A stretch of DNA of 64,000 nt. It comes from Thuidium tamariscinum (Eukaryota; Streptophyta; Bryopsida; Hypnales; Thuidiaceae). Shown piece after piece: positions 5,911 to 64,000 of the stretch; position 1 is the stretch's first letter; each line of letters opens with the position of its first letter. Position numbers and translations under genes: made by a program. The notes beneath the pieces were generated by a model. The model was not told the origin of the DNA. It saw only the letters and a program-made list of their open reading frames with translations, and ran no database searches. Location of the stretch: the NCBI GenBank assembly GCA_947034885.2, contig OX344749.2, forward strand, positions 29,341,501 to 29,405,500, read 5' to 3'.

Positions 5911-6013
5911 TACAGTCAATCCTCGATAAGTGTTAGGGGTTGGGAGCATACTTTTAGCTAACACTTAGACGCTAGTAACACATAACACTTATAGAAGGTG
6001 ATGCTGATGATTT

Positions 6014-6317
6014 ATAACACTTATAAAAAATAATACTTAGAAGAATTAAAAAGGTAAATACATAATATTTATAGAAAAAATGGATGAAATTATAAAATAT
6101 TGATTCATTATTCATCTAAGTCTGTCAAAAGAATGAATCAATAGTACTTTGGCAAGTTTCTAAATGAATCATAACACTTATAAAAAATAATACTTAGAAG
6201 AATTAAAAAGGTAAATACATAATATTTATAGAAAAAATGGATGAAATTATAAAATATTGATTCATTATTCATCTAAGTCCGTCGAAAGAATGAATCAATA
6301 GTACTTTGGCAAGTTTC
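6014..6317. repeat. 157-bp tandem duplication inside the pogo-like element
   Basis: Copy 1 (6014-6170) and copy 2 (6171-6317) both run from ATAACACTTATAAAAAATAA to GGCAAGTTTCT and differ at only a few bases. The duplication repeats the last coding piece of the transposase remnant, so it arose after or during decay of the element. Confidence 0.9.
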
Positions 6318-6458
6318 TGCTACACGCCAAGATTCTACTTCTTTTTCTAGCACTTTGATATTCCTAATAGATAACATGGTGTCATTAGGTCTTTGCTCCA
6401 AAAACTTGTTCAAAGTTTGAAGAGCACTACCTACATCTTAAAAGCCTACAACTTCTTC
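6273..6458 (-). pseudogene. C-terminal remnant of a pogo/Tigger-type transposase
   Basis: Reading the minus strand from 6437 to the stop at 6273 gives 54 codons that include ALQTLNKFLEQRP, LEKEVESW and the ending CQSTIDSFFRRT. This layout (a helical segment with FLEQ, a short coiled stretch, then a TxIxSFF end) is what I know from the C-termini of Tigger/jerky-type transposases. An in-frame TAA at 6438-6440 separates it from upstream EEVVGF codons, next to a 31-bp tandem duplication. No DDE catalytic core remains, so it is non-functional. Confidence 0.65.
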
Positions 6459-6501: not shown

Positions 6502-6646
6502 TCTAGAACGGACATCTAGAGTCACTTTGCGACTAGAAACTAGTACTTTACCTCAAAATTATCTCCTTCTAAGCGAGACAACTTATCACTTACCGAGGTA
6601 AAATTAACAAAGTCAGGAGCGCGACATTGCGTGACATTTAACACAT

Positions 6647-6794
6647 AACACTTACTAGTCTTAATTTTAAGGGAGCGGAAATCTCCCTAACACATATAGA
6701 GTTTTAGCACTTATCGAGGTAACACTTACTAGTCTTAATTTTAAGGGAGCGGAAATCTCCATAACACATATAGAGTTTTAACACTTATCGAGGT
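6647..6794. repeat. 74-bp tandem duplication near the right end of the pogo-like element
   Basis: Copies at 6647-6720 and 6721-6794 each run from AACACTTACTAGTC to CACTTATCGAGGT. The unit contains the subterminal CTTATCGAGG motif, so the right inverted repeat has been locally multiplied. Confidence 0.9.
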
Positions 6795-6808: not shown

Positions 6809-9286
6809 CATGCCTTGTGCCTACAAGTTCCACATTGGCACTATTCCTTGGTGTCCAAGGACGGCCCTTTCAATAGTGCTATATGGTCAAATTTTGTTTA
6901 AATTGTGTGTATTTTTGCCAAAAGTGGCTTGATTGGATTAGGGTGATGTGAACCTCTCAAAGTTTGAAGTTCAATTTTGGTATTCCCTTATTGAATGCAA
7001 TTTTATTTTTATTGATGACATACAACTTTCAAGGGTTGCAACAAGGATGGACATGATACAACATCTATGGCAACCAAAAATTTCAACAAGAATTATGTAC
7101 AAGAAGCTTCCCTATTAGGACATCAAAGGAGGAATACAAACACCACCACTATGTGAGCAATGTTAGCACAGGGAATTGAGCAATGTTAGCACACAGGGAA
7201 TTGAACTGGCAACGTCACCCAATATCCACCTATACCATCACTCATGGTAGTTTATGATCATTTCAGACCAATTGAACGCAACCTTCAAGTACATAGTTGC
7301 AAAATGGTCTTTTTGGTCACTTATCTCTTCTATATTCACTTTAGATGGGTAGTTGCATTCTTTGTCTCTACACTTTTTTAGAATGCCATTGATTGAACAC
7401 CTTTAGTCCTTTACATCTTTATTGCATTAATGAATAAATGACCATTTTCATTTGAATCTCAACCTTTTTTTCTACATCAATTACTATTACAAACAATTTA
7501 ATCTTGTTTTGTATTAATTTTTGTAAAAATGATTATTATTGAATCATATTACAATTGATACATTGAATCTTTATACTACATTAGCTTCTTAAAATAAAGT
7601 AATCTATACAATGATAACTCTTGAATCCAATGTAGGTATTGACTTCATTTTCTACTTTTATTTGTATAAACATTCAATATAAATTGCCAATTCCATACGA
7701 TTCTACAATGCTTAACCACTATATAAACAATTATTCAAAATAACACATTATATTTATTGAGAAGACTTTTGAATGTACATTTCCACATCACAATATAGTA
7801 CATGTTGACATAGTTTTCTACCACCTCCATTTGGATTAAAACTTCATATAAACCACCAAATCCATGCAACTATACAATGCTTGTCTACCACTAAACAGGG
7901 TGCTTTTTTTGGCGATTTGGTGCAAAATTGCACCAAATTTTTTGGCTTGGCACCAAGCCTATAGGAAAAAAACAATAAAATTTTGGATGAAAGCGCTAAT
8001 AAACTTCAATTTTTTTTAAAATAGTTGATGAAATTGCCAAATAAGGGATGAAAATACAATGATACACATATATTATATGCTAATATGATATTTTCTATCC
8101 AATATATAGATGAATGTTGAGATTTTGAGCTCCACAATAAAATGAAATATTGCCACTTTGGCAATTCATAGGAAATGAAAAAAAAAACTACCACTAAACA
8201 AGCATGCTAACAAGCATTGTTAATACTTCTTGAAAGTTCAAAAGTATCCATATTCACCCATAACAATGTTCACCTATTTGTTACATTTCTTTGTCAATAT
8301 GGAAAAGCAACATGAACAAGAATGGAACTAAGGTGGTTTAATAGAATGAAGCATTGGCTCTCAAACAAAATAGGAAAAAGACACTTTAATACATCCTTAC
8401 ACACAATGTTGTTAAGGTGAAATGTACATTCATTTCAAGACAATTCATTAAATCCTAAATGACATAGGATTTCAATGGTCACTACTTTGCTAGAACCATT
8501 TCTTAGTCAATGAATACACAAGCCTTTTGCTGTACAAGACAGAATCATCTTTAGAATTAGGGGTGGAAAAGGAAGATCTTCTACAATTCTTCAACTTCAA
8601 ATGTGCATTTTTGGATTTCTTAATTCCAATGATTCCCATGGTTTCACAAAAGATGGTTTCCTGGATCACCTCCCACATCGGGTTAAAGACATATACTTGC
8701 AAATGAATAATGTTTTAGTCAGACATGAATTAGCACCTCAAATAATGCAAGAAATTCTCATTCTCTTTCACAATAGAGAACAATGTGATTAGAATGCATA
8801 CAATCATACCTTGCTCCCCAGAAAATACAAGTTAAATACAAATTCAAACGCAATCTAGCAATAGAGGCATATGTAGGACCAAAGAGAGGTGACTTCATGA
8901 CTACTTGGATAACTCTATAATGCCCAACCCATTTCAAGAGCCAAACTGGAACTGAAGGCATAGATAACAATGATGTAATTTTGGGACTCTAAAATGTGTA
9001 CCCTTCATACAAGGACATCTGAAGGGTGAAGGATCTGCAGTAAAGCAATCAAACGCAAGAACACTTGCAGTGACGATCTCTACTCACACGAATAGTACAA
9101 GAGCTCAAGCCGAAATTTCATTCAGAAAATATTTTGCAACCTTGTCAATAATATGGAAAAGACATTGTGACCCTAATTACAGACAAGAAATACATATAGA
9201 GGGACAACAAATAAGATTTGTGACACGTTGGCTGAAGCTCCAATGCTCTCACATACAGCTTTACAAAACAGTGTTCAGAAACACTG
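6809..9286. other. AT-rich spacer without recognised genes
   Basis: Only short chance frames are present. One pair of adjacent perfect hairpins lies at 7915-7959. The last few hundred bases before 9286 are the presumed 3' untranslated region of the minus-strand macro/CRAL-TRIO gene. Confidence 0.5.
7915..7959. repeat. Two adjacent short hairpins
   Basis: ATTTGGTGCAA pairs with TTGCACCAAAT (7915-7938), and GGCTTGG pairs with CCAAGCC around a CA loop (7944-7959). A T-run and an A-run flank the pair. No gene is adjacent; function unknown. Confidence 0.6.
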
Positions 9287-16019: not shown

Positions 16020-19000
16020 ATTATTATTATTATTTTTTCAGACCATGGCAACGACACGGGCCACCCTAGTTTACTATTAAAGATCGATTGAAAATTCATA
16101 TTGCTTTGCAACTACAATAAGGTAGGTACACCAAAAATGGCACCTGACCTTAAAGCACCATCTACAACATGCATACATTTCTAAAATCAATCATGTACCC
16201 AAACTGTAGATGGCGCTTTCAGAAATAGACTTTGACTGCTAATAACTTTTGCATACGGGATCCAAATCCTTTGTTCTTAGGTGGGTTGAAACATGCTTTC
16301 ACTCACCAATAAGATTGTATAAAAATCTGAAGTGCATGATAATAGTACCTAGACACAATAAGAATAAGTGGCTTTTTTAGGTGTATCCACCTTAGAACCT
16401 CTCTTGTTAAACCCTCTTTAGGTTGATAAACCTCTATAACTCAATGTGTCAGAGTGGTCCCAAACTGAGCCAAATTACAATGGATGTGAGTAAATTCGAC
16501 CCTCTCTAAATGAATAAACCTCTGTAATTCAAAATGTCAGACTGGGTTGGGACCAATTGAGATAAAGAGGTTCTACTATAATGTGGGTACCTCCAAATTT
16601 GGCAAGACATTAAATTCTACCATCAAAGGTGGGATTTACCTTGAAAAAACAACATGAATTTTTTATTTTTGTGCAAATTTTGAATTCATATTTGTAATCA
16701 AAGATCTCAAATTAATAAGGAGAGGTTGAGAATACAACCTAAATAGGTCCAAAAATAGAGGTCTTTTTTTCACTTTTATTCAGAGAATCCAAAGTTTATC
16801 TTGTTGGGCCCACCTTCAATGGTAGGATTTAATGTCCAACCCAATTTTGTCTTTGATTGACAACTACCATCATCATTCCATATACATTTCCAAAATCACT
16901 ATATATCTATGAGGAAGAAAAGATTTTAGAACATCTACCAAAAACTTTCCACCATTCATAGCTTTTGCATACAAGATCCAAATGTCAAATTGTTCTTTGG
17001 TGCCTTTGAACCTCTTTCCATTTGTCAACTTGATAATATGAAAATTTGACCAATGTGGTAATATTAAATAGGCAGAATACCAAAAAATAGTACTTGGGGA
17101 GGTGCCTATCTTAATGATGTTTTACTTGGTCAACACACTTGCTTCACTTAAAAGTCGTTCTTTTTTTGCAATAATTATAAAGTTGTTGTTTTTTGCCAAG
17201 GGAACAAAATGAATAGTTACATTTTGAAATTAGAGACTCTAAATTAGAAACTACTACAAAATTGGAGTGTGACCTTTTATCTTGTTACTCTTGGAATTGT
17301 GCATTTTAGCTTTGGACATCATGGCCTCAAATTTGGTAAGTCATCTATACAAAACACAAATCTGAACTAACATTGAAAACCTAAATGAAAATCTAATTTA
17401 AAGGCCTACAATTTCAAAAGCTAAGGTCTATAATTCAATAACTTGTATTAATTAATGATGGAAATTGTCATAAATTAATGTCAAGTTGTGTCAATACAAG
17501 TATAATGATTGAAATGAATATGTAACCCTATGTTTAGGTTACTTTTGTAAATAATTTGGAAAATTTGGAAAATATCTAAAATTATAAAAATTGTGTGACT
17601 AATTTTGAAAATCTAAAAAAAAATTCATTTTTATAATTCTACATATCCAAAAATCAATCTTGAGAGAATTTAGAAAAGAAATAGAAATAGAAAGAATCAA
17701 TCTAAAATTAGGTATGTCCAAAAATTAAAGAGAACAAAGTGCCAAAAATCCAAAAATCTACATTGAATTGCTGAATTGTCTAAATTCTAAAATTACATTA
17801 TTTCAACCCATTAAACTTGCTAAAGCACTCAAACTTGAATATAAAGTACGTAGGAACAAAAAATCTATAAATGCTTTCAAAGATCAAGACAAAAAGCTAG
17901 AGTCACCACTATATGGTAGCATAGATTCTATAAAGTAAGTACTTACCAATTCCATCTTAGTTTAATCTATGTACAAAACATTTCAATCTAGACTATGTAT
18001 AGTAACATTTGAATCTGCAAATCTTAGATGAATGTATTTAAAGAAGGAAATTGGAAAGGGAATATTTTAGGTTTATTTTTAGTATATTACATACTTGATA
18101 ACAAACTAGTAAAGAAAAATGCATAAATGACTTTAAGCATTGCTTGGCTTAGACATTGACTCTTGCATTCAAAGAAATTCCTTACTTTAGTCATTTGGCC
18201 CCTAAGACTTAACACTCAAAGGACAATTTTGTTCATGGCAAGGCAACCAAAAAGAATCTTGTATTGAATTTTAGGATATAGGCATGAATACTTAAAGAGG
18301 TAAGTAAATAATAAAATGGGAGTCATCAAACCAATCAAAGGCAAGGAAACAAGGAGAATTTTTGTTCAAAATTGTATTATTGATTGCTACTCTCTATACA
18401 AGTAGTGCCTCTAGACTTTCACATGATCTAACCTTTGGATCAAACAACCTCTCTTATACAAATCAAAAAAGTAATTTTGTCTTACATTAATGCACCATAT
18501 ATAATCTTTACACAAGCACAAATATAACACTATGTTGACAATTTTGATTATTCCAACACAAGAATGTTTGAAGAGCTAGAAAAGTCCTTTGGGGATAAAA
18601 ACTCATCAAACTACATAATTTTAATTGTACATTACCTACTAAAATCTAATTGCACAACATTTACATGCCAAGTTATAAATATGCATGAGAATAATGATAG
18701 AAGCCTATGATGCAATGTCATTAGAGAGAATTGAATTTTCAATTGGTTTCATAACTCTTATATTCAATGAAGTAGGTATTGTAAAAAGTTTCCAAATATG
18801 CATCTATAATATATATGGTTCTTGTTATTTCTCTACAAGAACCCATGGTTTTTTGTATGCATATGTAAGGACATCCACCTATTTTCATGTTAACAAACCA
18901 TCAAATGTAAAATCTTAATGCTCATTTCAAACAAGAGGGGCTCATTTAGCAACTAGGTAACAATTTGGTGTAAAGTAGAGCAACACATTGTAGACAAAAG

Positions 19001-26600: not shown

Positions 26601-28850
26601 GGTTGTAGTTTTGTATACAATTCTAAAAAAGTGCCATTTTGTACCCTTTCAAAAGATGTAATTCTAGATCAAATTGAATAAATAAGTTCCATAGGATAGT
26701 CCTTGAACCACACCAAAAATGAAAGTGATATAATGGTTTACATCTTTGTAATTACTCTTCAAAAATTGATGTATTGTAACACCCTTCAATACTAGTGCTA
26801 AATAGGATTTGCTACAATTGGGTGTAAATTTGAGTATATGGTCTTAAAATTGATTAAAAACCTTTGGACTAATTCCTTCACACTATCTATGGTGATTGAT
26901 GAATCATGCCACCTCTACCCCCTACCTCCCACCCATTTCCACCCATGCCAAAAATCAATGGCCATCCAATTGAAATTCAAAATAAAAGGTCCCACTATTT
27001 TAGCCATTATTCTAAAAAAAACATGAACTGCTCATGCCCAGTGAATCCGTGAAAGGATTTGAACTATTTCTTATTTCTCCGCGACAATTAGGCAATACAA
27101 TTTAGTATTTCATTGTGTTGAATCCTCTGTGAGCGAGAGGCATGACGGGGCGCATTTTGGATGAAGGTTCTTCCCCAATTGCAATTCAGTTTCAAGAACT
27201 TCAATTACATGTTGCGTTAATCAAATTCAAATATTTTGCATTTCAAGTTTTTCAATATGTTTTTGACTTTTTGTGTTCAATATGTTTTTGCATATTGAGT
27301 TAGATGTTCTTCAATGTTTGTTCAAGCATCTCAATATTCAAGGTGTCTAGTGCTCATATTTTGGCTGGACAAAGATGAGAGCTCTTGCAAAGTTGATGGA
27401 ATGTAAGAGCTAAGAGACGGGCATGTAAGTGAATGTAAATTCTTCACTTATAAATTTAATATGTATTTCTTTCTCAAACTAAATTTAACATTCAATTGAA
27501 TTTCTATTATTGTAATGCAATCTTTAATGTCATTTTTATAAGAGATAAATCTCAATTAAGATGTCTTTGTAAATTCCATTTCCAATTTTTACAATAAATT
27601 GTAGTTTCAATATGATGAAACTTCAACCCTAAATTTAAAAGATTAATGCAACTTCAATGTCATAGTATACATTAATCATATTTTTTCTCTCCATTTCAAT
27701 ATAATCTTCAAAATTCATTGTTGAATGCGCTTAAAACTCAAAAATTCAATGTGAAATTCACTTTAAATGTTGAAGTCACGGACCTACAATACAGTTTAAA
27801 GAAAACTTTCACAGTGACTACTAAATCATTTTATGTTTCAATTATCCATGTCATAGAATCATAGCGGTTACTTTAGAATTTATTTGTAATTGACAACAAT
27901 GACGATGATATTCAAGACCTTGTACTATCACCGGCATGCATGACCAAAGACACAATTGAGCAATCTTCCCATTCAATTGAGTATGTGATATTTACACTTG
28001 TACTCTCCGTTGATTGTGAAATTCACAAGAGCTTAGTAGTGTAGAAATCACATGATGCTCCTACATGATTAAAATATTGCACTTGTAGGTCTTGAATGTA
28101 GAGAACATTGAACAAACATGAATTACACTTTTGAAATTGTTAAAAAAAATGACAACTAATAAAAAATGACATGTGTATTTACTATAATATTTTATATGTA
28201 AAACCTAATATGACACTATCCACTCTAAAGACAAACTACACAACATATACTTAATTCCGTCACACATATACATAGCTATCCCCTACATAAAATATGCATT
28301 TTTCATTGAAAATTCCAATATGAAAGGCTAGGCCATTTCAAGTTTAGACAAGCACAACTCATTCATTTTTGCACACATTATCTTGAAATTGGTTTTGTTA
28401 GAAGTGTATGAAGACATTTTAATTATTCAGTGGTCGACTAGTCCTTAACCCTAGACCGCCCAAGGGGACAGAATGTGGCCACTGAAAATTAGAAATTGCC
28501 TTGGGCGAACTTACATTGAACTGAAATCGAGGGATCAAATGCGGAATGGGGAGATGAGTAAATTTGTAAGGTAGTGGTAGCTTTGCTGAAGTCATCGGGA
28601 TATGGAATTGTCAAGAATGGAGGTCAGAATTAGGCATAGCAAAATATGGAACATGGTAGTTGAGCCAAAATGTCCAAGAAGAGACCAAGACAAGCTGGTG
28701 GGAGATTGTTGTTTGGATCCATTCATTAGAGGGGATTGAGGCCTCCAAAGGGTTGTTTCAGGGTTGTTCCTTGAAACTATTCCTGTAACTGTTGGTCGCT
28801 ATCATGCTAGATTTACCCCAAAAAAAAAATGAATAAAAATTTGGATCCTA
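23644..28850. other. Spacer: divergent promoter area, then long AT-rich DNA
   Basis: 23644-24360 is the upstream region of the phosphodiesterase gene and of a possible plus-strand first exon at 24363. Beyond about 24600 the sequence is AT-rich with no convincing coding. Near 28569-28739 a 45-codon frame (start at 28603, MELSRMEVRIR) is followed 118 bases later by a run of 24 A, which could be a retroposed transcript, but I recognise no family. Confidence 0.4.
24363..24443 (+). CDS. Possible first exon of an unidentified gene
   Basis: An ATG in good context (GAGCGATGGCG) opens 27 codons beginning MAEGKKEILQVWKNSAIDRL and ending at a strong donor GTAAGT. I found no believable second exon; the nearest acceptor (CTGCAG at about 24464) leads to an early stop. 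It may be a truncated gene sharing an upstream region with the divergent phosphodiesterase, or chance. The product is not recognised. Confidence 0.25.
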
Positions 28851-31690
28851 AAATATGAAAAAAAAAAAAAAAAAAAAAAAATTCTTTTTGCAAAAAAATA
28901 AAAATTTATGACGCGGCACTCTCTTGACCACGTAGGATTTCTGTTCACGCGACAGAAACTGTGTTTCAAAAATCCTCTAATGTTACGAGGCGGGGACAAA
29001 ATTCTCATTTCGAGGCTTTAGGTTTTTGCACAACTCGTCCGTAGTGCTAGAGTGAAGTACTCAATTTTAATTTGGTGCTGGAGGAACTTTCGACCAATTT
29101 TGATCTTGTTGCAGCGTAGTATTGTTCAGGTTTCAGAGGCTCCGTTTTCAGAGTTTAGAACTATGGCTGCGTTTTGCAGTGTACTCCTTTCTTATTTTTG
29201 AGATTTTGAACTTCGATTGCTTATTCCATCGCCCAGTTATAAATCAGTTGAATTTGAATGAATTGTCACGCTCTATATTTGTGTTACGGTGTTTGTATGT
29301 TTCTGATCAGGCGCTCTTCGACATGTTGAATGAGGGAGGTTTGATTCTTGATTCTGTCTGTATTATCAAGGATTCATGCTCTTCATCTCTTTGGATGCAT
29401 TCACCGCAAGTACGTGGTTGCGCAACGTCCCTTCTTTGAGTTTTGGGCAACTGTGATCAAATCGGCAATACCCAGTTTCATCGCAAGAAGGTTCCGGTTT
29501 ATCCCGATCACCCATCAACAACCCGTCGCCTTCAATTTCTTACCCTTTCGTTGTTTTGAAATGTATCGTGCTTGTTTCTGCACCACCATGTTGCTTCTAT
29601 TTTCTCGGTAACATCCTCATATGCTTGATCCAAAACAATGTTTGTATTTGCCTAAATTGGTTGGAATCAAGCTGCAATACCCCAAAACCAATGTCGACAA
29701 TGAGCGCGTCCATGTTCATCAAGTGCTATAATCTTCCGATTTGATCATTCAATTTTGAGGTTTGCAATAGATCTTGCATCGTGGTTGGATTCACTCCCGT
29801 AGGCAACGGTAGATTGACGTGAGTGCACGTAGATCACAAATGAAGCACCGATTCTTCACTATGGGTCTTCGAAGCGTGTGTTTGAACCAGGCTGAGTCTA
29901 GGTGGTCTAGGGTTAATGGGTTAACCCTTCAAGAACTAAAGGGACATAATGTGTCTTCTTCAAATTTTCAATGGCAAATTCTCAATAGGGTGGAACAAAC
30001 TGAATTGGGTGGAACTAATTTCAATATTTTATAAGCTTCAATCTTGTCAAAGTAACAAGTTTACATATTTGTTCCACTGTCTAATTTACAAAATTTGAAT
30101 GTAAATAGTATTTAGAATTTTATTTAGAAAATGTGGTCTATTAGAAAAAGTAAGCAATTATAATATTTTTTCAATGAAAAGAGTAGTAGAGATAGAAAAA
30201 ATATTTTCTTGGAGATTTTTAGTCTCTATTCTTTACAATTTTATTCCAATTTTTTTTAGTAATTTCAAAAATAAGAGGTTCAATCTACAATGGTTAAGAA
30301 TACTAAATAATTAGAATCATTTCAAATTTTTTTGAAGCTATTCCACAAAATTTGATAATAATAACAATTGTTAAATTAAAAAAATTTATACATATCTAAT
30401 TTTTTTTAAAAGGATCTGATTTGGTCAATTTTAGAATTCTAATCCTTTTGTTTGAAAATGTGTACAAATTTTAGGGAGTCTTTTATTTTCTTAAATTTTA
30501 AATAAAAATCACTACATTTGCCTTAGACTCAAAAAAAATTAGAGGTGAGGGGTGGAGGTAGGAAAGCATTATTCATCTTTTAACAAAGCTTTTACTGCAA
30601 AATCTGCATTTTGGCCTATGAAGTTGATCATCTATAATTGTTACAATCTAAAAATTCAACGATCAAAATTTTCAACAATTTAATTTCATGTATACTAGAC
30701 AAAGTAGTCTTTACTTTCATGTTGTTGAAATTAAAAATTTCAAGCATATTTAGTTGTGCAAAAAATATCAAAGTGATACAATTCACTGAAAAACTTCATT
30801 ATCAAAAAGTCATTGGACCTTGAGGGATTAATTCTACAAAGAAGCAAAAGATTGAAAGAAATTCATGAATGGCTTTCAAAAAAATGAACAATGAAACTAT
30901 GGTAGAGATACCTATTATTGACCCCCCACACCATTAACAACCAATAGGATATCCTATTTCAAAGAAGATTAGAATGGATTTCTGTTTTTTCCTTGGATTG
31001 TGTGTCTTTGTACTTTTCCAAGGTTTGGACCAATAAAGTGAATGACACATAAGTGAGCATAAATGTAGGAAGTAATTAGTAGGAAATTATTCTTGAATGA
31101 TTGAAATTGGATGACTCTAGATGTTGGTTATAGGTCAAGCCCAACTTTTGCCTTCCAAAATTCATAGTAATTTTGATTCATGAGATAAAATTACCAAATT
31201 TTTTGCAATCCCTATTATTTCTATCAAAGCATCTCTTGAAAATATTTGCTTTGCCCTTCACTACCTTAGATTATATCCAAATGTGCTTATTTTATTGGTT
31301 AAGGGAGAAACACCCATTTCCGTCCCTATACCTATTCCTGGACCCTAGAGTGTCACTAAATCTGCCCATAAGCATTCATTAAAGTGTCCGACAAATGTTT
31401 AATTCTGATTTGCTGACGCAATTGTAAGACACATGTATAATTTTCATTCATTGACAATTGATTTCAGCGGAGTTCAGTTTAGGGTACACCTATAGGATGG
31501 TTCCAATGGTCTAGGGAGCCAATACTTTGAAAATTTATAGAAATTACATACTGATTCCGAAAAATTTGATTTTTTTTTGGAATATTCATGATTTTCACTC
31601 ACTAATACTTAAAAAAATATCATTTAAAAAAAAAATGCCTCCAACTATGCTGAATTCCTTATTTGCACGGTTTTAGGTGTTTGTGATAGT
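28851..31690. other. Unassigned region with A-tract and mixed composition
   Basis: A 24-base A run lies at 28858-28881. Between about 29000 and 29850 the sequence is less AT-rich and has open frames (for example 29348-29611 on plus, 87 codons), but I recognise no domain and could not build a spliced model. 29931 carries a TTAACCCTTCAAG end-like fragment. 30000-31690 is AT-rich; part of 30990-31090 recurs at 47160-47240. Confidence 0.35.
31017..31075 (+). repeat. Dispersed repeat, copy 1
   Basis: Contains TTGGACCAATAA and CATAAGTGAGCATAAATGTA; the same order of motifs recurs in the same orientation at about 47177-47230. Identity is high over roughly 60 bp and then fades. No coding content. 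Confidence 0.7.
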
Positions 31691-32340
31691 TTATTTAACC
31701 CTTAAAGGTCGATGCTGACATGTGACATCCAATGAATGACAAAACAGTCTATCCGTTGTACAAAACTTCTTTTTCATTTTATTTTTTTTCAATCATAATC
31801 CTGCAGATGTGCATGAGCATTCAAGCGCTGAAACAACATCATTTGTTGTACTGTCAATTTCAAGCATCTGAAATTGTTTGAAAATGGCATGGAGACAATA
31901 ATAGAACCATACTAAGTTACCCTTGCTGCAACTTCATTCAAGGTAGCTTGGAATGAGGATTTTTGACAAACACAATAAGGTAGGAGCACCCATTATTTTC
32001 ACTGTCCCCATTGTTCATTATTTAGTAGAGTTCAGTTTCTTTGAAAATGTCCTTCATGGTACCTTGAAACCATCCCCATGTTTAATTGTGGTTGGTGGGT
32101 TCTGATTTTTTCAGATTTTGATGTGAGAAACAAGGCAAATCTACTAGACTACAAGATTTAGGAACTCTACTCAATCTAATTTTGAAAATTCATAGAAAAT
32201 AGATGCCTTATTCAAAAATTCTATTTTTTTTTTGAAAATTCATGATTCTCAATTGCCTATACCAATTGCAAAAATATCCTTTTGAGGGAAAAGTGCCTCC
32301 AACTATGCCTCCAACTATGGTGAAATTGCTTAAATTGATT
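31530..32340 (+). repeat. Pair of diverged direct repeats
   Basis: Segments at about 31530-31650 and 32180-32310 share AAAATT(C/T)ATAGAAA, a long T run, ATTCATGATT and TGCCTCCAACTATG in the same order. They are about 650 bp apart. They could be decayed ends of a larger element, but no clear interior remains. Confidence 0.5.
31695..31750 (+). mobile_element. Fragment of the small TTAA-ended element
   Basis: Starts TTAACCCTTAAAGG and continues with GACATCCAATGAATGACAAA, which matches the left part of the element at 32856-33091 (GGCATCCGTTGAATGACAAA). The right part is missing. Confidence 0.5.
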
Positions 32341-32855: not shown

Positions 32856-33091
32856 TTAACCCTAACCCTTGAATGACGCCGCAGACGTTTGGCATCCGTT
32901 GAATGACAAAGAATCTTTCCTTCCAGGAAAGAAATGCAACTTTTCATCCTCGATATTGGGGGTGGAAAGGAAAAATCTTCTACATCACTTTGACTTCCAA
33001 TGCATATATTTGGCTTTTCCATAGTAGGTGATGTCACACGGTATCAAAATGCATGGTTTCCGCAGCCACTGGTCCGTCCTTCAAGGGTTAA
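32856..33091 (+). mobile_element. Short TTAA-bounded inverted-repeat element (copy C)
   Basis: TTAA at 32856-32859 and 33088-33091. The left end (CCCTAACCCTTGAATGAC) and the reverse complement of the right end (CCCTTGAAGGACGGACC) share CCCTTGAA-GAC. A related copy in opposite orientation lies at 53228-53459. The interior is non-coding. The termini resemble those of the larger elements at 55920 and 59451. Confidence 0.65.
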
Positions 33092-36700: not shown

Positions 36701-38777
36701 AGGTATTCTAGAAGACTTGGCCACGTTACAATTGGCAGGGTTTAATGTGGATAGATTACTTAGAATACCTCGGGGTGCGTGGGGTGGGGTGTCTACTAGT
36801 GATGAAATCGGTACCTGGTCAGGGATTGAATCACCCGGAGGTTTATCAGAAATTATAATTTTATGCTTTAACTCCTCAGGTGACTTGAAGGAAACGGGCG
36901 GTCGATCACCGGCATCAGGAATGAACATCATGTCACCTAATATTTCTTTCAAAATCTGCACTCACAGAATCCGAGGGGAAATTAAAAGGATTTTATAACC
37001 GTATCAGCACAAACTTCAAGAAAGAAAGCAGTGAGCAGTGCATAATCAGGTGACTACCAACAAGAAATATTACCACAGCTGCATTCTTCTGGTGCTCTTG
37101 CGATAAGTGGCTTTCAATGGTGATGATCACGGGATAATCAGACGCCACAAAAGCATTTGCTTGGATGTCCTTAATGCAGTCCTCGAATGCAACTGCCTTT
37201 GTCAAAGTACTGCCAAGTCCGTCTGTAAAGTCAGTAATACAGCACAAAGATTTTTCAACCTTACCCTGGAAGTCAAAGAATCCAAACCATAAAATAACAG
37301 CTTAACCCCTCAATGACCAAAGAATCACGGTTATGAAACAACCAATTCCGTTGATGGAATTGTGAAAAATGGAATTGTGAAAAATATAATGCAAATGGGG
37401 CCAAGTTTTAATTCAGCGGAATCAGCAAAGAACATTGCATACGCTGGTCAAACAATAAATAAGTTGGAAAAAAGAGAAGTTCCAATATGACCTACTCAAA
37501 CTGCCCCAAAGCCTTAAGAATAGTCACATTTGCTTCGGTTACGAGCCTTCAAATCTTTAACGGAGCAAACCCCACAACAATCCCCCAACTTTAAGAAAAA
37601 AGTAGTCACGATTGGATTCGTACCCGCCATGTAGAACCTTGATTTTGCCGTTTTTCCCATCCCAACAATCCAGCTCGATGACACGACATCCACCGCGGAG
37701 CGCTTCCACAATGGGGCGAGTGCTGCACTTGGATGTCAACTGGTTACCCGTTAAGTATGAATTGTGGCTCGAAAAGATGTAGTAGTGCGGTAGCGGCGCC
37801 GTCATATCCTCTGTAGGCTGCTGTTTCAAACCCTGTTGACACACATTCCAAACACTCAGTTCGTCAACACAGAAACTGAACGACGTAATAACCACGTCTC
37901 ATATTCTCACTTCATTCAAGATCGTGATTAAGGCAGAGAATATTGTTTACGCGACATTAAGCATTCGAATATTATGAAGAGCGTGCTTTCATTGAGAGAT
38001 TACTCAACAGAGATCACTGGAGAGCCAATCTGTTGAGATCAAATACTTATTGCTACGTGAGAATTTCTTATGCAATTTCAAAGTGCGGTAGGTTGTAGAC
38101 CACTATTGAAGAGACTCTAGGCAACCTCGTTTTTATTCACAGTTTAGTGGTTATAGACATGTAGCGAAACCATGCTAACACCACTTGCTAACCAAGCGTA
38201 TGAATATATGAATTACTGTTGGGAACATGGGTGAGAATACGAGACAGGATCGGATCCGTCAGGGTTTAGTATCCTCGAGAAGTGAAAATTAGAAACATAA
38301 CGCTTAAAAAGAGAAAACAGATTGTGAGAATTAGGTACCCACCGAGTTAGCAGGCGCATCTCGGTGTCCATTGAGCTCCGGGCTCAGCAGAAGCTTAAGA
38401 AATGCAGGAAGCTCAAGAGTAGCAGGCGGCTCATGCTTCGACAACGAAAGATCACGCCTCGAGTGATGTTTGGAGCGCTGGCTCCTTTGGCTCCTATGGC
38501 TCCTTTGGCTTAGCCCTGGAAACCGCAAATGGCGGCCACTGTTCTTCGTCTTCGTAGACAAGTAGAAATTCGCGATCAACGAGCCCGCCTCCTCCTCCGT
38601 CACATCTCTCTCACCCTGCACGGTCCTCAAAAAAGTAGCCAAATCCGCGGCATTCATGACGCCCTTCCTCCCTGAGCACTTCTCAAACGCTTCCAGAACT
38701 AGGTTTGGCGGTGTGCACACCGCGTGGAAGGGGGCCACGCTGGGCGGGAGGCAATGCGAAAACATCTCGGTGGCCAT
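33774..38777 (-). CDS. Phosphoinositide-specific phospholipase C, 9 exons
   Basis: Exons, 5' to 3': 38777-38343, 37832-37624, 37209-37074, 36955-36815, 36492-36125, 35724-35469, 35213-35142, 34679-34571, 33988-33774; all GT-AG and in phase, 646 residues. It hydrolyses phosphoinositides to diacylglycerol and inositol phosphate at the plasma membrane. Order: N-terminal EF-hand-like part (about 18-70), a Ser/Arg/His-rich stretch (SQRSHRSQRSQRS), X domain about 158-300 (HYYIFSSHNSYLTGNQL with His168; VIELDCWDG; VLHGGTLT with His213; PVIITIESHLS), charged linker, Y domain from about 430 (MYPFGLRFDSSNADPMDAWR), and C2 domain from 516 (VKVLLGTDW to FSIRTLEIKGKGIA). This is the standard plant PI-PLC layout without a PH domain. 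The first ATG of the open frame is at 38777; upstream in-frame codons start only with TTG. A 5'-untranslated intron is possible (a good donor lies at 39059). Confidence 0.95.
36648..36797. repeat. Imperfect inverted repeat in PLC intron 4
   Basis: AACACCCACTCTACCCC with AGGTATTCTA on one side is mirrored by AGAATACCTCGGGG with GTGGGGTGTCTAC on the other. A similar right end (AGAATACCTCTGGGG ... TTCTACTA) lies at about 51722-51755 in an intron of the GH9 gene, which suggests a small dispersed element. Boundaries are uncertain. Confidence 0.4.
37302..37330 (+). mobile_element. End fragment of a TTAA-type element in PLC intron 2
   Basis: TTAACCCCTCAATGACCAAA resembles the left end of the elements at 32856 and 59451. 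Only the end is recognisable. Confidence 0.35.
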
Positions 38778-41360: not shown

Positions 41361-41553
41361 ATACCTTTCTCGGCCTTTTGGCTAAGATCAAGTGTAGTAT
41401 CTGTTCTTATCAGTTTAATATCTGATACGGGGGTCATCGACTCCCATGATATTAACCTAATTTTTCCAGGGTGCGGGGCCGCCCGGCAGCTTGCTGCCCG
41501 GCCCCGCGCGCGTCGCCTTGGTATTGCACTACTTCCTTGGCTGGCGCAACCCT
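41361..41553 (+). ncRNA. U2: U2 spliceosomal snRNA, copy 1
   Basis: Starts ATACCTTTCTCGGCCTTTTG and carries the conserved 5' third, including the branch-site recognition GTAGTA at 41394-41399 and the following stem-loop IIa region. An Sm-type site AATTTTTCC lies at about 41459-41467, and GC-rich stem-loop III pairs CCCGGCAGC with GCTGCCCGG. U2 pairs with the intron branch site in the spliceosome. About 96% identical to the copy at 63765. The Sm site has one C where copy 2 has T. Confidence 0.97.
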
Positions 41554-43566
41554 CCCCCCCCCCTCTCCGGAGGGATCCAACAAAACCCTAAACAGGACGT
41601 CAACGTGAATCCTTCATACACTCCCATGTAATGTAACGGTGTATGAGATACTGTTGTTAAACTAGACATTCGGACATCGTGAATCCTTGGATAACTGAGT
41701 CGCGTTTTGTTAAAGATCACTGAATACATATAGTTTGACAGCGACTAATCTGTAACTCTCAATTGGTATCAGAAGTTCCCTGCGGTGTCGGACCATTTGC
41801 TGTTGTTATCCCAACGTGAGGATTATTGTGGAATTTGCTCTGCAGAGCCAGATTGATGCGGAAGGGGTGAATTTAACTGAGGTTTTGATACGGAAGGGGT
41901 TTGGGGTTTGGGATTTTTTTTTGTAGGATTTAGGGTTATGGCGCTGTGAGACTTGCGGTTTAAGAATTGCTCTGGGGCACTGCTGACGAGCTATATATGC
42001 TGAGGACAATGATCCAGCTGCTTTCGGGACATCGTTGAGATCCTCATGTTCTTGGGTGAATCTTGGCCGTGTAAAGAGGAGCTTTCTCTCTAAGAGCAGT
42101 AAGTCGCAAGCATGTTGAGATGCGCGGCTTATTAGTGCAGTTGTAATCGCCACACAGGCTGGTTTGTATACCAGAAGCGAAATCCGGGTCTTTGGTGCGG
42201 GGCTCGAATACATGAACTCTTGATTGATCGATGCTGGTGTTTAGTTCTTCCCCTCTGAGGGCTGGAGAAAAGATAAAATTTTGTGAATCAAAACTCTTCT
42301 GAACCAAATTCTGAACTTGACTTCCGTTTTGAACGGGATGGAGTGGAGGGTTTTGCGCCTGGCTTACTGCCAGACCACCACCTGCTAATCCGTCTTGTGG
42401 CTTTGCTTGCTCTTTGAGTATGTGTCCCCTCTCTAGCTCCAAGTTTGGCCACACTACTGTCACCAAGTCTAGCTATATTGTCTCCCCATGATTTCGCACC
42501 TGGTCTGACCTACAGAATTCAGGTCGCCAATTAGAAATGTCAGCAATATTATTGTCGCTGGACTGAAATACCTCCAGACAGGACTTTCCGCAATGACGGA
42601 GCAATTCCTCCTCAGGCCTAAATAGAAATAGAAAACTAGCATTGACAAAGAGCGGATGAAAACGTGGAGTTCAAGTTATGATAAAGATACTAAGGGAACA
42701 TTCTAGTTCTTCCAGCTTACAACGAACACAGAGAAATTCAATCAATAGAAAGACCTTACCATCCCTCAGCCGTGATCGAGAGTTGTTTCTGACCGCACTT
42801 CCTGAACATAACTAAACCAAGAACATGAACAAAACGAAAGTGCACATCTGGGGAGTGAATGCTTCATCGGGTCCTCTATCCTGGTCATTAACTCCACACC
42901 TTTAGCAGTATCAGTCGTGACGTTCGTGAACAAAGCTCTGTGAGCAGCGATCTGGAGCTCCTACGGGTCTCCTCTCCAAAATTGGCTGAAAGGAAAAATT
43001 GCTGAAAATGGAAATGAAATGTAGTTTGAGTCCGTTTGGAGTAACTCAACACCAGTGGGCAACAAACCAAGCTGCTGACAATGCAGGCAATTGATAACAT
43101 GAATCTTCCATTTGCATCCAAGAAGATCTGGACCTTCTCAGGCGAAAACCTCATAACAATCTGTGTTATTCTTATCCACATCCCGCAACCTCCCTCTTGG
43201 CTCTCAGATAATTAGCACCGCACAGATGAAATCTTTATTTGCAATCAGTTCACATCAGAGACCATCCCTGTAGCAAATTTGCCACCTGATCAACAAGACT
43301 CGCCACTTCAATTATACCGGTACTTCCTAAGCTGAATCCTCAAAACCCACACCCTAACTCTCGAATCATCAAAGTGTCTCCCTCCTGTAGCTGCTGCTCA
43401 CATTCTATGAAAGAAAATGCAACCAACATCACCTCTCCAGTCACCTATAAAGCCATCATACAGTAACAACCCACATGCAAATTGCTCAAATCTTTGCTAC
43501 GCCATCGATCTCCAAGTGAACTCCAAGACCCCACTGGATGTGCTTGCTAGTGCTGGTCCTTGAATG
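41554..43566. other. Spacer between U2 copy 1 and the F-box gene
   Basis: A block CCGGAGGGATCCAACAAAAC followed by CCTAAACAGGA (41567-41596) is shared with the 3' flank of the second U2 gene and may serve 3'-end formation. Overlapping minus-strand frames at 41806-42466 (135 and 140 codons) are polar, lack known motifs and are not supported as genes. The part up to 43566 may include F-box 3' untranslated sequence. Confidence 0.4.
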
Positions 43567-53227: not shown

Positions 53228-53459
53228 CTAACCTTGGAAGGACGGACTGGTGGCCGTGGAAATGATACATTTTGATACCGTGTTCAACATCATCTACTTT
53301 GAATAAGCCAAATATACTCATTGGAGGTCCAAGTCATGAAGAAGGTCTTCCCTTTCCATCCCTAATGTCAAGGGTGAAAAGTTCCTCTTCTTTCCTACAA
53401 GGAAAAACTCTTTGTCATTCAAAAGACGCTAAACATTCACAGTGGTGTTCAAGGGTTAG
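53228..53459 (-). mobile_element. Short TTAA-type element (copy D)
   Basis: Inverted relative to copy C (32856-33091). It shares GGAAGGACGGACTGGTGGCC at the left, and GAATGACAAAGA plus CCCTTGAA at the right when read on the minus strand. The flanking tetranucleotides are now CTAA and TTAG, each one change from TTAA. Non-coding. Confidence 0.6.
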
Positions 53460-55919
53460 ACAAGAACGAGTAATTCATGAGCATTGATTTGACATCAATC
53501 CATCTTGTATTGCATAGGAAAACAATCAATTAGAAATCAACTAAGTTAACTAAGTAGGTTAATGAAGTATGTAATTAACTAGGAAAGAAGAATATTATTG
53601 ATATGGTAATGAACATCAAAGAGTAGTTCCTTAGGAACCTATCAACTTATAGTTGTAATAGGATAGAAGGAGAAGTAAAGAGAAGGTCAAGAATGCTTGA
53701 ATGTTTTGTTAGCTTCTAAGAAACAATCATGTTCAAAATAGAATGCATCCATCGTAACAAATGAACTATGAACTTGTGTAATATTGCATATTGCAAAGTA
53801 CAATGTTGCACATGATGTAACTAAAGTATTGTTTTGCAATTAGAAAGCTAAAGTCTTAACAAATGAAGTACATTATTTTCTCATATCCATCGAATGAAAA
53901 TTTATATTACTTATCAAATTGTATTGTAAGGGCACAAATAGTAGACTAATCAGTTTATCTACATTGAACTAGAAAAGAGGTATTCAATCCAATTTCTCCT
54001 TTGTTTCCTTCACCTTCTAGATTGCCACCTTAGTGGCCCTCTAAACCTTGTCAGCTATGTAGTGAGTGCCTTGAACTTTCTTCTTCTTAACCTTCTCAAC
54101 AACTTTTATTTGTATCTACTTCTACATATCAATATTTTTAAAAATAGAAATTTGTTTTATTTTTATTTTCATATATTATTCCAAAATTTGCAACTCGATT
54201 TTCACAACTTTAGTGAAACTAACCAAAAAGGAGAAAAGTTGTATGGTTGTTCATGGTTATTCATCATAGAGATTTGTTCAATACGTTATTTATGACAACA
54301 ATATAATATTTTAGCTCTTCTATTATTATAAAGACCCTTTTATCTTTTTGAATAATATTATTAAATTATATTTTATTGATAAAAATATTTTTAAATTTAT
54401 GCAAAAATTACTAAATATTATACATTTTGAAATATACTTATGAATGATCTTTCAAATTTTACCAAAGAATCTCTATTCATAATGCATGATATAATCTCTT
54501 TAAGATAATAGCTCAAAAATATTGTAAAAGAATACTTTACAACACTTCTAAGTTTTGTCTAAGTATACAAGAGACCTTCATTCATTAGGATTTTAATTTT
54601 GTAGTGACAAAACTCTTTGCTAGTAAAATATTTATATTAAAATTTTACAAAAACATTTTTTGCATGTCTCTACAAATGGATAGATCAACTATTAATTCTG
54701 TTTAGTAAATTACATATATATCTTACAACTTGATGAATTTTCTAGCTTTTCTTGAATTCAATTGAAAATTTATGAAGAATTTTCGTGAAATATATACTTT
54801 GTTTTTCTTACTCAATTTCTACAAGAAATTTAAAAAATCAAATCATAAGTTTGTTTTAGAAATTTGTCTCCTACTTTTTGAATTCAATATTCCATTGCAA
54901 AAGCAGATCCTCAAAAAATTTAGAGCAAAATTTTCTAAAATAATCCTAAAGTCTCAAGACCTTTTTATATAAAAAAAAAACAATTCAAATTGCCATCTCT
55001 ATTGCAAGATATAAAAATGCTTTAATTTTTTTCATATGTAACCTTAGGGTCTTGCGCTAAATGAATATAAGAATGTGTAGGAGAAATTTTAGAAACTTTG
55101 ATAGTGCAAATTGCCAAATATTTTTATTCAAAATGAAGAAAACAACTTTTTTGCACTTGGCATGTTGAAATGGGTGATTGCAAGAAACACTTGTACTATT
55201 TTTCTTCACATGACATATAATAATTTGTTTTTTGGCCATGATTTTTGTGTTTTGACTCTAAATGACTCAAGATTTATAGGAAAGGTATTCATGACTATAA
55301 TACACCTTGTCTAATTTGTTAGTAATTTTTAAATAATTAACTATTTAAAAAAACAAAAAACAATTGAATGTCACTCTTGCCAATTTAGAAGTTTTAGTAC
55401 TATATAGCACTACAGAAAAAGAATTTTGAGCTGAAATTTAGAGGAGATGGTCTTCTAGTAGACTTATAGCTAATGGCTAAAGGAATTTTTAAAATAATTA
55501 TTTTTATGTGGTGTAGAAGCCCACAAAGTGAACCTCTTTCTGCTTGCATTTTGAAACATCTAAAAAATGATTTTGGTGAGTTTCTTGAAGAATGGTCATT
55601 TCCATAAAGTTGTTGCAAATGAATAGTTTTATATTATTTAAAGTTTTTTTCCTATATTTCCCTAATTAAAACATCAAAGCATGTATTTTCTTGAGATTTG
55701 GCACTTTTCAAGTTCTCCTACTTAGGGAATTTTTCAATACATTCCCTTTGGTGGTTACCTTTGTCTTAAAAGTGTATACATTAGTCAGATATTTTATAGA
55801 TTATTCTTCTAATTTTAAAATACTTCTAAAAAATCATGAAAACACAATGAATGGTACAAGTGTTTCTTGCAATCACTCACATTTTAATTTGTAAAAAACA
55901 AAAAAAACAAAATTTTTGA
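53460..55919. other. AT-rich spacer
   Basis: Very AT-rich, with only chance frames of up to about 80 codons composed of F, L, I, N and K. No feature supported. Confidence 0.5.
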
Positions 55920-56575
55920 TTAATCCCTAAATGCCTAAGGCACTAGAATCAGGTGTTTGCAAAACTTTAAAGTTAAATAAAACCTAACCAAGTTGCTATT
56001 TTTAATAGTTTATGTTTTTGAAAAGTTCTTTTAGAAGTCTAGTTTTAGTGTCAAAAATCCAATCTAGAAAATGAATGATAGTGACGGGGATAGTGATTTT
56101 TCTATTCAAGATTTTGTGCAAGGGTACCCATTGCAATCTTGACTTTCTGTAGTGTTGAGAGTTGTAGAAAATGAGCCTCAAATACGTTAGATCTTGGAGA
56201 AAAAATCACATTCAAAATTCATTTAGAGTAGATTTTGAGAAGCCACAAATTAATTGGAGTTATGCATGTTTGGCCCTTTGACCTCATATTTTTATGGTCA
56301 CCAACTTTTCAGATTTGGCTTGCAAAAAGAAGATAGAAACACTTTACATCACTTTTATAGTTTTAACACTTTTATGGTCAAACATTCTAATCTTTCACTC
56401 TATAAGTGATATTATTGTGTTTTCTCTTACTATGCAATCTCTAATATGTCTAGTTTGAATTTGTACGGTTACAATTCAAAAAAAATTGATACAACTTATC
56501 AAAATATTAGCATTTTGTTCAACTTAGAGCAAATTCCAGAAAGCTCAAAACAGGCCTTGGGCATTTAGGGATTAA
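55920..56575 (+). mobile_element. TTAA-bounded inverted-repeat transposon, copy A
   Basis: TTAA at 55920-55923 and 56572-56575. The left terminus TCCCTAAATGCCTAAGGC and the reverse complement of the right terminus TCCCTAAATGCCCAAGGC match at all but one base. The 648-bp interior has no open frame of note, so the element is non-autonomous. Copy B at 59451-60097 is a reversed relative with shared order of internal motifs throughout. Confidence 0.8.
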
Positions 56576-58526
56576 AACTAAAAATTGTCCATTTAGGAAG
56601 AATTGATGGTGATGGAATTTCACAAAAAGAATAATCTTAGAATCATCATTAGTGTTCAAAAATTTTGCACAGTGGGAATGCTATTTGCACTCATGTGGAG
56701 GACATAAAATAATGTATTTCAAGATTTTCTTTGGTGGAAATATGCTTTCCTACTATGCTAATATACCATGAAAATCTTAGTTCTAATTCATTAAATTTGA
56801 GGACTCCTAATGTAGTAAAAACCCTACACTTGACATTGTGACAAATTAACCCCTAAAGTTCCTTGACTATGTTTTCTCCCAAAACACTTAAAAACTGCCA
56901 TTTCTATTGGAAAGAGGAAAATAAAATTTGAAATCAAGTTTTGCCATATCCAACCATAGGATCTTGTAGTAGGATAGTTCATTAATGTATGTTATTTTTT
57001 CGGGAAGGTTTGACCGTGTGGATTGCAAGATATTAGTGTTTAGGATGATGAAAACACTATTTTTAATGCTTGAAAATTGTGGGCAGCTGCACTTCACAAG
57101 GTCTATTTCATCCTAAAAATGACCCATGTCACTTGTGCTTCTCTGGATTCATTGTTCATAGTAAGTAAGGTACATGCTCCAAAAATTTCAAGTCATTTGG
57201 GATTGTACAACATATAGCAAAAAATTGAAATGTGCAAACATGTTTGTCCAATAAGCCATACAAAGGCAAATCTTTAGAAGTCCATATTTTTTGCAAAAAT
57301 ATTTTTTTTCAAAAATTGAATATTCATCACCTTCTAAATGATGTTCTCCATAATAGGAAATTTTTTCAATCCAAAATACTAAAATCTCACCTATTTAGAA
57401 AAGAGATTGAGGTATACAACCGACTAGTTCTCAGGGCAGGCTAAAAAATGGGTTACAAGTATCAAGAATGTCGGGTCTATGACCTGGCCCCTTGTAAACC
57501 CCCGATTTGTCACCGTGGACTCACGGGTTCTTTTTTCAGATTCCTACACCATTCAAGGCGTAATTAGGCCTGTAAAACCCACAAAAGAGTATTAAACTAG
57601 TATTGGCATTACACATACCAATGTGCCATTTGGTCATTAGAAGGGATTTATGATAGTTTGCATCCAAAAAGGGTCTTGTCTTGGCTAAATAGATGTCAAA
57701 CTGATAGTGATGTGTAGGATTAGGGTAAAAAGCCTAAAAAGGCCCGACTATCCAAGTTGAGAGGCTATTTAGTCTTTTTAATCCTTATTTTAGATTGCAT
57801 TCAAGATTATATCATAGTTATAGGTTAGAAAGTCTTCATGGAGGAATCTAAGAAGAACCCCCTTCTCCCTATAGCATCAAAGAAAATACGGGCGCAATAC
57901 TAACCTTGAAATGCAGGTATCGGACGGTTTCCTAATTCCAGGAGCACGCAGTGAGGATGCAAGTTTGCATCCATGTGGAGGGATCCCATGGATGGTCCCC
58001 TCCAAAGTTTGGGAATTTTCCAAGATAGTTTGGATATTTTCCCAAGCGGTCAACCGCAGCAATCTTTGGGTGGGAATTCGAAAGAATATCCCAAAGTGCG
58101 GTAAAATCCTACTAAAAATCCGGCAAGGCGGTCTCACAGCAACGGAGCGCTTCCCAAGTTTCAAGACAAATCGATAGGTGGAAGACCCCGAATCGGCGAC
58201 ATCCTTCTACAATTGACATTTAAACGATGGTATTGAGAGGATTCTTTAAGATTTAGGGCATAGTTTCAAGGCGAAGGAGTTCCTCGTAAACTAATTATGG
58301 CCTCCCGGACCCAATGGCGCAATCCGTTTGCCAATCGGAGCTAAACTCCAAAAATTAGCCTTTTGGGGACAGCACATGGAGGAGAAAATGGGGTTCAAGG
58401 CTCCCCAATGCCAATTTGGAGAGTTTGGGCCCCTATGCCTGTGAGGAACGTGTAGGGAACGCATGAGGAACTCCGGGCACATGTGGGAGCAAGTACCACC
58501 TCAAAAAGTTTGGTAATTTTCTATTG
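56576..58526. other. Spacer with mixed composition
   Basis: 56576-57450 is AT-rich; TTAACCCCTAAAG at 56847 is an isolated element end. 57450-58500 is less AT-rich, with short open frames on both strands (for example 57911-58177), but no motif is recognised. It may be a decayed larger transposon; I saw no long terminal repeats. Confidence 0.35.
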
Positions 58527-58624
58527 ATACAATTCAAAAAAATTGATAAAATTTTATCAAAACGGTGCCTTTTTGTTCAATTTAGAGCAAATTCAAGGAA
58601 ACTCTAAAAAGGCCTTTGGCATTT
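58527..58624 (+). mobile_element. Right-end fragment of the copy A family
   Basis: Carries GATACAATTCAAAAAAATTG, TTAGAGCAAATTC and GGCCTTTGGCATTT in the same order as the right 100 bp of copy A (56488-56567). It stops before the terminal AGGGATTAA. Confidence 0.65.
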
Positions 58625-58631
58625 CAACAAT

Positions 58632-58864
58632 GCTAGTGTGTGAATATGAAAATGTGAGCACATGAGCCTTGAGTATATATATATAAGTAGAAATATTATC
58701 ACCAATGAAGGTACTTATAATATAAACACCTATTATATAGGTATTTATAATATAGTTGCACCTTGGTTATAAAAGATTTTTACAATATAGATTCCTATAA
58801 AATAGGTGTACAATGTACATTCTTTTAGGCTCATGAACTCATATTCATGTGCTCACACAATAGC
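58632..58864. mobile_element. Palindromic MITE
   Basis: The left arm (GCTAGTGTGTGAATATG ... GAGCACATGAGCCT) pairs imperfectly with the right arm (AGGCTCATGAACTC ... GTGCTCACACAATAGC). The centre is made of TATATA and AATATAG repeats. About 233 bp, non-coding; no clear target duplication. It begins 8 bp after the truncated end of the copy A-family fragment. Confidence 0.6.
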
Positions 58865-59450
58865 AACTTCCTTAGCCATTTTGGAGTAAATAAAAGGATC
58901 CTTAGATCCTATAGTTGAATTTGTTCAAAAATAAATGTAGAGAAAGTTTTTTGCCTTGCTTTGAAGAGCGGTATTTTGAAGCAAATGTGTGTCTCTAAAT
59001 ATGAAAAAATCCTAAGGATTCAAATTCATGTTTACTACTTAAAAATTTAATTCACATCAACTAATTAAAAAATTGATTCATGTTTCTTCAAAACCTTCAA
59101 ATTTCTGTTTGATAAAAATTAAGCCCCCTTGTTATAATGAGCAAATTTATTTTTACAATCAAGCTTCATGTATACTATTAAAATATTTGATTCAAATCTA
59201 TTGTTCATAAAATACTAGCCTATTGAATTTTATGAAAAGTCAAATTTTATAAAAAGATTATGGGTTGATCTACTTCACATGGACAATTTCCATTGACTTC
59301 ACAATATTTTTGTCGACTAAATGTCAATTGACACAAGTAAGTTGCTCTCATTTTGTTGTGAAAACAATATGTTCCATTTATTTAAAAAAATAAAGTATCA
59401 ACAATATAGTATTATAATTCATGAGCTTTGTTCCATTTATTTAACCCTTG
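58865..59450. other. AT-rich spacer
   Basis: No gene or element recognised between the palindromic MITE and copy B. Confidence 0.5.
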
Positions 59451-60097
59451 AATGTCCAAGGCTTGTTTTGAGCTTCTTCAAATTTACTCTAAGTTGAACA
59501 AAATGCAAACATTTTGGTAAGTTGTATCAACTTTTTAAAATTGTAACTGGTCAAATTCAAAGTAAACATGTTAAAGATTGCATAGGAAAAAATACAATAA
59601 TACCACTTATGGAGAGAAAGATTATAATGTTTGACCATAAGAGTGTTAAAACTAAATGAGTGATGTGAAGTCTTTCTATCCTCTTTTCACAAGTCAAATC
59701 TCAAAAGTTGATGACCAAACAAATATGAGGTTAAAGGGCCTAACATCATGCATAACTCTAATCAATTTATGGCTTTTCAAAATCTACTCTCCAATTTTTG
59801 TCAATGAATTTTGAATGTGATTTTTTCCTCAAGATCTAGTGTATTTAAGATTCATTTTTAAGAGCTCTCAACACTACAAAAAGTCAAGATTGCAATGGGC
59901 ACCCTTCGGCACAAAATCTTGAATAGAAAAATCTCTTTCATTTATTTTCTAGATCGAATTTTTGACACTCAAACTAAACTTCTAGAAGAACATTCTAAAA
60001 ATGTAAACTACTAAAAATATCAACTTGGTTGGGTTTTATTTACCTTCAAAGTTTTACAAACACTAGATTCTTGGTGCCTTGGGCATTTAGGGGTTAA
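59451..60097 (-). mobile_element. TTAA-bounded inverted-repeat transposon, copy B
   Basis: TTAA at 59451-59454 and 60094-60097. The left terminus CCCTTGAATGTCCAAGGC and the reverse complement of the right terminus CCCCTAAATGCCCAAGGC match at most positions. The 639-bp interior matches copy A in reverse orientation, for example AATCTTGAATAGAAAAATC and ACTTGGTTGGGTTTTATTT against their complements in A. Non-coding. Confidence 0.8.
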
Positions 60098-63764: not shown

Positions 63765-63957
63765 ATACCTTTCTCGGCCTTTTGGCTAAGATCAAGTGTA
63801 GTATCTGTTCTTATCAGTTTAATATCTGATACGGGGGTCATCGACTCCCATGATATTAATCTAATTTTTTCAGGGTGCGGGGCCACCCGGCAGCTTGCTG
63901 CCCGGCCCCGCGCGCGTCGCCTCGGTATCGCACTACCTCCTTGGCAGGCGCAGCCCT
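63765..63957 (+). ncRNA. U2: U2 spliceosomal snRNA, copy 2
   Basis: The same 193-nt gene as at 41361, with GTAGTA at 63798-63803, Sm-type site AATTTTTTC and the same stem-loop III. About eight substitutions separate the copies, all in the 3' two thirds. It lies in the same orientation, 22.4 kb downstream of copy 1. The 3' block starting CCGGAGGG at 63966 is also conserved. Confidence 0.97.
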
Positions 63958-64000
63958 CCCATAATCCGGAGGGACCCAACGAAACCCTAAACAGGATTGT

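Follow-up and report, generated by a model that had tools for sequence, protein, structure and literature searches.

TTAA-bounded miniature transposons with shared C-rich ends, probably of piggyBac type, in a 64-kb window of plant-like DNA

The piggyBac transposons form a superfamily known mainly from animals. Their terminal inverted repeats are described as 12–19 bp long, with a CC[C/T]T motif and TTAA target-site duplications (PMC2872659), and a second account gives CCCTT as the most conserved 5′ motif (PMC10813416). A preliminary description of the locus considered here, which proposed a piggyBac signature for a pair of TTAA-bounded elements, took the superfamily to be one not normally reported as common in plants. 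This needs softening, since PiggyBac is one of the seven superfamilies of angiosperm MITEs in a 2023 review (PMC10004981), and a repeat table for ferns counts 1,230 PiggyBac elements (PMC6890710). The elements reported below would thus belong to an already known kind, unless genome-wide data differ.

The window, by which we mean the whole 64-kb stretch of DNA that was analysed, holds two principal elements, copies A and B, which on balance we take to be non-autonomous cut-and-paste MITEs that insert into TTAA and duplicate it, belong to a wider group with shared ends, and are probably mobilised by a piggyBac enzyme. Like the piggyBac-type MITEs described from corals (CMITEs; PMC2872659) and in animal families (PMC10813416), they have TTAA boundaries, C-rich termini of the CC[C/T]T type, short inverted repeats and a non-coding interior. 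When a piggyBac-type end (CCCTTTAACGCCC; PMC2872659) is set by eye against the end found here (CCCCTAAATGCCC), 10 of 13 letters are alike. There are also differences: A and B measure about 656 bp, compared to about 100 bp for the CMITEs, and CMITEs as described in PMC2872659 keep their interior and vary their ends, whereas the elements of the window share their ends and differ inside. Compared to known piggyBac MITEs, the CC[C/T]T motif is shifted by one base at three of the four A/B ends, some ends in the window carry CTAA, the gene surroundings appear plant-like, and no autonomous partner was seen in the window. The features of the A/B family are as follows.

55920..56575, plus strand: copy A, a full-length, non-coding miniature element of 656 bp including both TTAA
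55920..55923, no strand: left TTAA of A, putative target-site duplication
55924..55941, plus strand: left terminal inverted repeat of A, TCCCTAAATGCCTAAGGC
56554..56571, minus strand: right terminal inverted repeat of A
56572..56575, no strand: right TTAA of A
58528..58624, plus strand: third, truncated copy, 97 bp, equivalent to positions 551–647 of A
59441..60097, minus strand: copy B, full length, 657 bp, of the same family as A and opposite to it in orientation

Copy A is laid out as TTAA-TCCCTAAATGCCTAAGGC...GCCTTGGGCATTTAGGGA-TTAA and aligns end to end with reversed B at 86.4% identity over 640 aligned columns, with 33 gap columns (82.2% over 673 columns by BLAST, gaps counted). The 62 transitions and 25 transversions between them correspond to a K2P distance of 0.153, a divergence that suggests this pair last moved long ago. 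On both sides the similarity breaks off at TTAA, and only 34 and 28 of 100 positions match in the 100-bp flanks. Including TTAA, the inverted ends match at 19 of 20 positions in A and at 17 of 20 in B, and the terminus CCCTAAATGCCYAAGGC, allowing up to three mismatches, occurs four times in the 64 kb, compared to a mean of 0.21 in shuffled sequence, with none of 100 shuffles reaching four. No ORF of at least 70 aa was found inside A or B. The third copy, a piece of the right end, matches A at 82.7% and is without the final 9 bases, i.e. the terminal GGG and the TTAA are missing.

Much of the preliminary description therefore stands, namely the TTAA at all four ends of A and B, their opposite orientation, their lack of coding capacity and the presence of a truncated third copy. 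Its coordinates for A are right, while the left end of B had been placed at 59451, which is 10 bp too far in (the TTAA is at 59441). The 18-bp inverted terminus it ascribed to both copies is exact at the right ends of A and B; the left end of A has one change and that of B is diverged (CCCTTGAATGTCCAAGGC).

A reading of A and B as the long inverted ends of a single 4.2-kb element (55920–60097) was dropped, since A and B each carry a separate pair of inverted repeats and are bounded by TTAA on the inner side too, and since the four ORFs of at least 70 aa in the interior have no Pfam match above the cut-off. Two further structures lie close by. An inverted repeat at 58631–58865, with 39-base arms that are 74% complementary around 157 bp, starts 6 bases past the third copy and is perhaps linked to the lost end of that copy. 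A MITE-like stretch of 703 bp at 55174–55876, with a perfect 22-bp inverted terminus (GTGATTGCAAGAAACACTTGTA) within 27-base arms, stops 43 bases short of A, and its target duplication is not clear.

Elsewhere in the window there are elements and isolated ends with termini of a similar kind.

8448..8686, plus strand: element F, 239 bp, a diverged member of the C/D family, bounded by TTAA on either side, its end motif degenerate
29921..30831, plus strand: probable element G, 911 bp, ends TTAACCCTTCAAG / TTAATCCCTCAAG, single copy
31695..31755, plus strand: left end E of the C/D family, TTAACCCTTAAAGG..., with no right end of its own found
32862..33091, plus strand: element C, 230 bp, second family, ends CTAACCCTTGAATG / TTAACCCTTGAAGG
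37302..37315, plus strand: lone end-like motif, TTAACCCCTCAATG
53228..53459, minus strand: element D, 232 bp, C family, both ends CTAACC when read inward
56846..56859, plus strand: lone end-like motif, TTAACCCCTAAAGT, between A and B

The second family (230–240 bp; C, D, F and left end E) was defined by its ends and by BLAST matches outside A and B. Elements C and D are identical at 181 of 230 aligned bases. Element F, found by BLAST and the most diverged full-length member, agrees with C at 148 of 208 aligned bases, with a score of 29 compared to a maximum of –16.5 in 200 shuffles; for left end E the score is 25, where the maximum of 500 shuffles is 1. Element G is probably a third family, present as a single copy: 14 of 20 bases match between its ends, a pairing drawn from the termini only, and the right end of C is a slightly better partner for the left motif of G than is its own right end (12 versus 11 of 14). 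For the lone motif at 37302 no TTAA-bounded partner was found; the best candidate is GTAATCTCTCAATG at 38003, which agrees at 11 of 14 positions, is GTAA-bounded and would give 702 bp end to end, and a weaker, ATAA-bounded candidate lies at 40895. Within 5 kb of the motif at 56846, the only listed partner is the right end of B.

One further possible element with TTAA and CCC is an inverted pair of 1,472 bp at 28445–29916 (TTAACCCTAGACCGCC / TTAACCCTAGACCACC) with an internal poly-A run. By number such pairs do not exceed chance, as it is one of 12 TTAA pairs that match at 12 or more of 16 positions, where control words give up to 14 pairs. Another MITE-like stretch, of 231 bp at 16606–16836, has 28-base arms starting GACATTAAAT and CAA just outside both ends.

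The families of the window differ in their interiors and have the end TTAA-YCCYTNAAKG in common. Written as TTAA-[CT]CC[CT]T.AA, this end occurs ten times in the window, with two further occurrences after CTAA, a count that is biased in that the core was derived from ends already seen. With the preceding bases left free, the core [CT]CC[CT]T.AA is found 52 times on both strands, those 12 included, and any other 4-mer precedes it at most twice. By comparison, 300 second-order simulations in 4-kb blocks give a mean of 0.22 TTAA-preceded cores and a maximum of 2. When 55920–60097 is masked, 45 cores remain, five of them after TTAA and two after CTAA. The pattern TTAAYCCYTNAAKG, allowing at most one mismatch, occurs 15 times compared to 1.03 expected, and none of 100 shuffles reaches 15.

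Common ends combined with unrelated interiors point to recognition of the end by a single transposase, or by several closely related ones, supplied from elsewhere. In the mechanism we propose, a transposase acting in trans, most likely of the piggyBac type, would bind the YCCYT or YCCYTNAAKG ends, excise the element at TTAA and reinsert it at another TTAA. Since such an enzyme would read the ends, families whose interiors are unrelated could persist.

How closely the ends follow the piggyBac form varies. The CCC-type termini of the preliminary description are borne out, with 5′-YCC...GGR-3′ at all four A/B ends. By eye, CC[C/T]T directly follows the 4-base boundary at seven of the 15 named ends (B left, both of C, both of D, E and G left), and so at one of the four A/B ends. 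The motif is displaced inward by one base at both ends of A and at G right (TCCCT), and at B right and both lone ends (CCCCT); both ends of F are without it. The proposed piggyBac signature thus holds in part: the termini fit piggyBac better than Kolobok and the end is common to other elements in the window, whereas the motif is directly adjacent to TTAA at a single A/B end and no transposase is listed for the ORFs of the window.

A target duplication of another length had been named beforehand as an objection to the piggyBac assignment. At six end pairs (those of A, B, C, D and G, and the questionable 28445–29916), with the left edge of D placed one base inside and F left out, any direct repeat outside the boundary is at most 1 bp long. 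A duplicated target would therefore have to fall inside TTAA, and is likely to be TTAA or its inner TA. The objection keeps some force for the C family, where four of seven readable ends carry TTAA and three carry CTAA (C left and both of D). Read as direct 4-mers, the flanks of D are CTAA and TTAG, which show no duplication unless two bases have changed. The CTAA ends would be accounted for either by mutation away from TTAA or by duplication of TA at YTAR sites, and a few piggyBac elements are reported to have target duplications other than TTAA, CTAA and TTAG among them (PMC10813416). As TTAA is a palindrome, duplications of 4-bp TTAA and of 2-bp TA share one empty site wherever the neighbouring bases are T and A.

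The C-family CTAA ends, together with the single A/B end with a direct CC[C/T]T, give a TA duplication some standing, and the elements might be Tc1/mariner-type MITEs that duplicate the 2-bp TA and whose ends begin AYCCYTNAAKG, with TTAA only a preferred YTAR context. Elements C (CTAA/TTAA) and D (CTAA/TTAG) would fit this without mutation; A, B, F and G are compatible with it since TA is the centre of TTAA, and the elements resemble Stowaway and other Tc1/mariner MITEs in being small and AT-rich with TA at the target centre. At all 12 core-motif ends TAA is preceded by T or C, again in line with a TA duplication. However, T dominates, giving TTAA at 10 of the 12 compared to a window background of 30% T (P = 0.0002), and at 6 of 8 when the ends of A and B are left out (P = 0.012), which favours TTAA as the duplicated unit. 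In addition, F has TTAA at both ends despite being the most diverged full-length member of its family, and the AYCCYT end is unlike the Stowaway terminus, CTCCCTCC. On balance a Tc1/mariner origin seems unlikely, and a 4-bp TTAA duplication the more probable.

The joined flanks of A, B, C, D and G were compared with the window, and no convincing empty site was found there. The left flank of B has an exact 16-bp repeat (59370–59385 and 59429–59444), one of five such 16-mer pairs in the window. The site at 59370 was rejected as a paralogous empty site of B, its right side being mostly an A-run; the score of that side is reached by 140 of 2000 random stretches and by 131 of 424 A-rich ones.

Membership in another superfamily that duplicates TTAA seems improbable. 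The two candidates are Kolobok and Sola3, and Sola3 duplicates TTAA on insertion. Kolobok likewise has TTAA duplications and occurs in chlorophytes and rhodophytes, but its termini are given as 5′-RR and YY-3′ (PMC9587614), in contrast to the 5′-YCC...GGR-3′ of every A/B end, which makes piggyBac the better fit of the two. Tourist-type MITEs of the PIF/Harbinger superfamily have a 3-bp duplication of TAA or TTA (PMC10004981), both contained in TTAA. This origin is very unlikely here, for a 3-bp duplication would leave an extra base at one end only, whereas the inverted repeats of A and B are symmetric through all four bases of TTAA. Just as hard to credit is a TTAA that belongs to the inverted repeat itself, in elements that insert without duplicating their target: no outer duplication was found and both ends of D read CTAACC, as expected of an inverted repeat, but transposons without target duplication are rare and a palindromic TTAA makes repeat membership and duplication look alike.

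For the piggyBac reading, the enzyme would have to come from outside the window. No transposase is listed among the Pfam matches of any of its 160 ORFs of at least 70 aa, which for 140 of them holds among the best 25 families listed (E up to 0.1). The matches below 1e-3 are of host type, namely F-box, F-box-like, GH9, PI-PLC X and Y, EF-hand-like and C2; it is from the F-box, GH9 and PI-PLC domains that the gene content appears plant-like. Two U2 snRNA genes lie 22.4 kb apart on one strand (41361–41554 and 63765–63958), both with a TATA at –31 and neither with RTCCCACATCG, the plant element motif looked for, in the 130 bases upstream. The window also contains near-identical tandem duplications at 6007–6318 (155-bp units, 97%) and 6646–6793 (74-bp units, 97%).

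Wider searches used collections without plants. The 17-bp terminus matched three stretches in viral contigs; match L001 was rejected, since TTTA rather than TTAA precedes the terminus and it looks like chance. A 20-bp internal word of the element gave no matches in the viral contigs and the 21-bp TTAA plus terminus none in the genome contigs, results that say little given the absence of plants from these collections.

Taken more broadly, the presence in 64 kb of two sure families and a probable third leads us to propose, tentatively, that this genome holds a diverse and long-lived piggyBac lineage, in one family of which the target specificity would be relaxed to YTAR. If so, it would represent, in plants, a well-populated branch of a mainly animal superfamily, and if following the ends were to reveal a piggyBac transposase in this genome, the lineage would be native to the host and rich in families. 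It would then bear on how widely the piggyBac superfamily has spread and might provide plant-adapted enzymes for traceless excision. Even without the transposase, TTAA-YCCYTNAAKG offers a cheap handle for finding and classifying such elements genome-wide.
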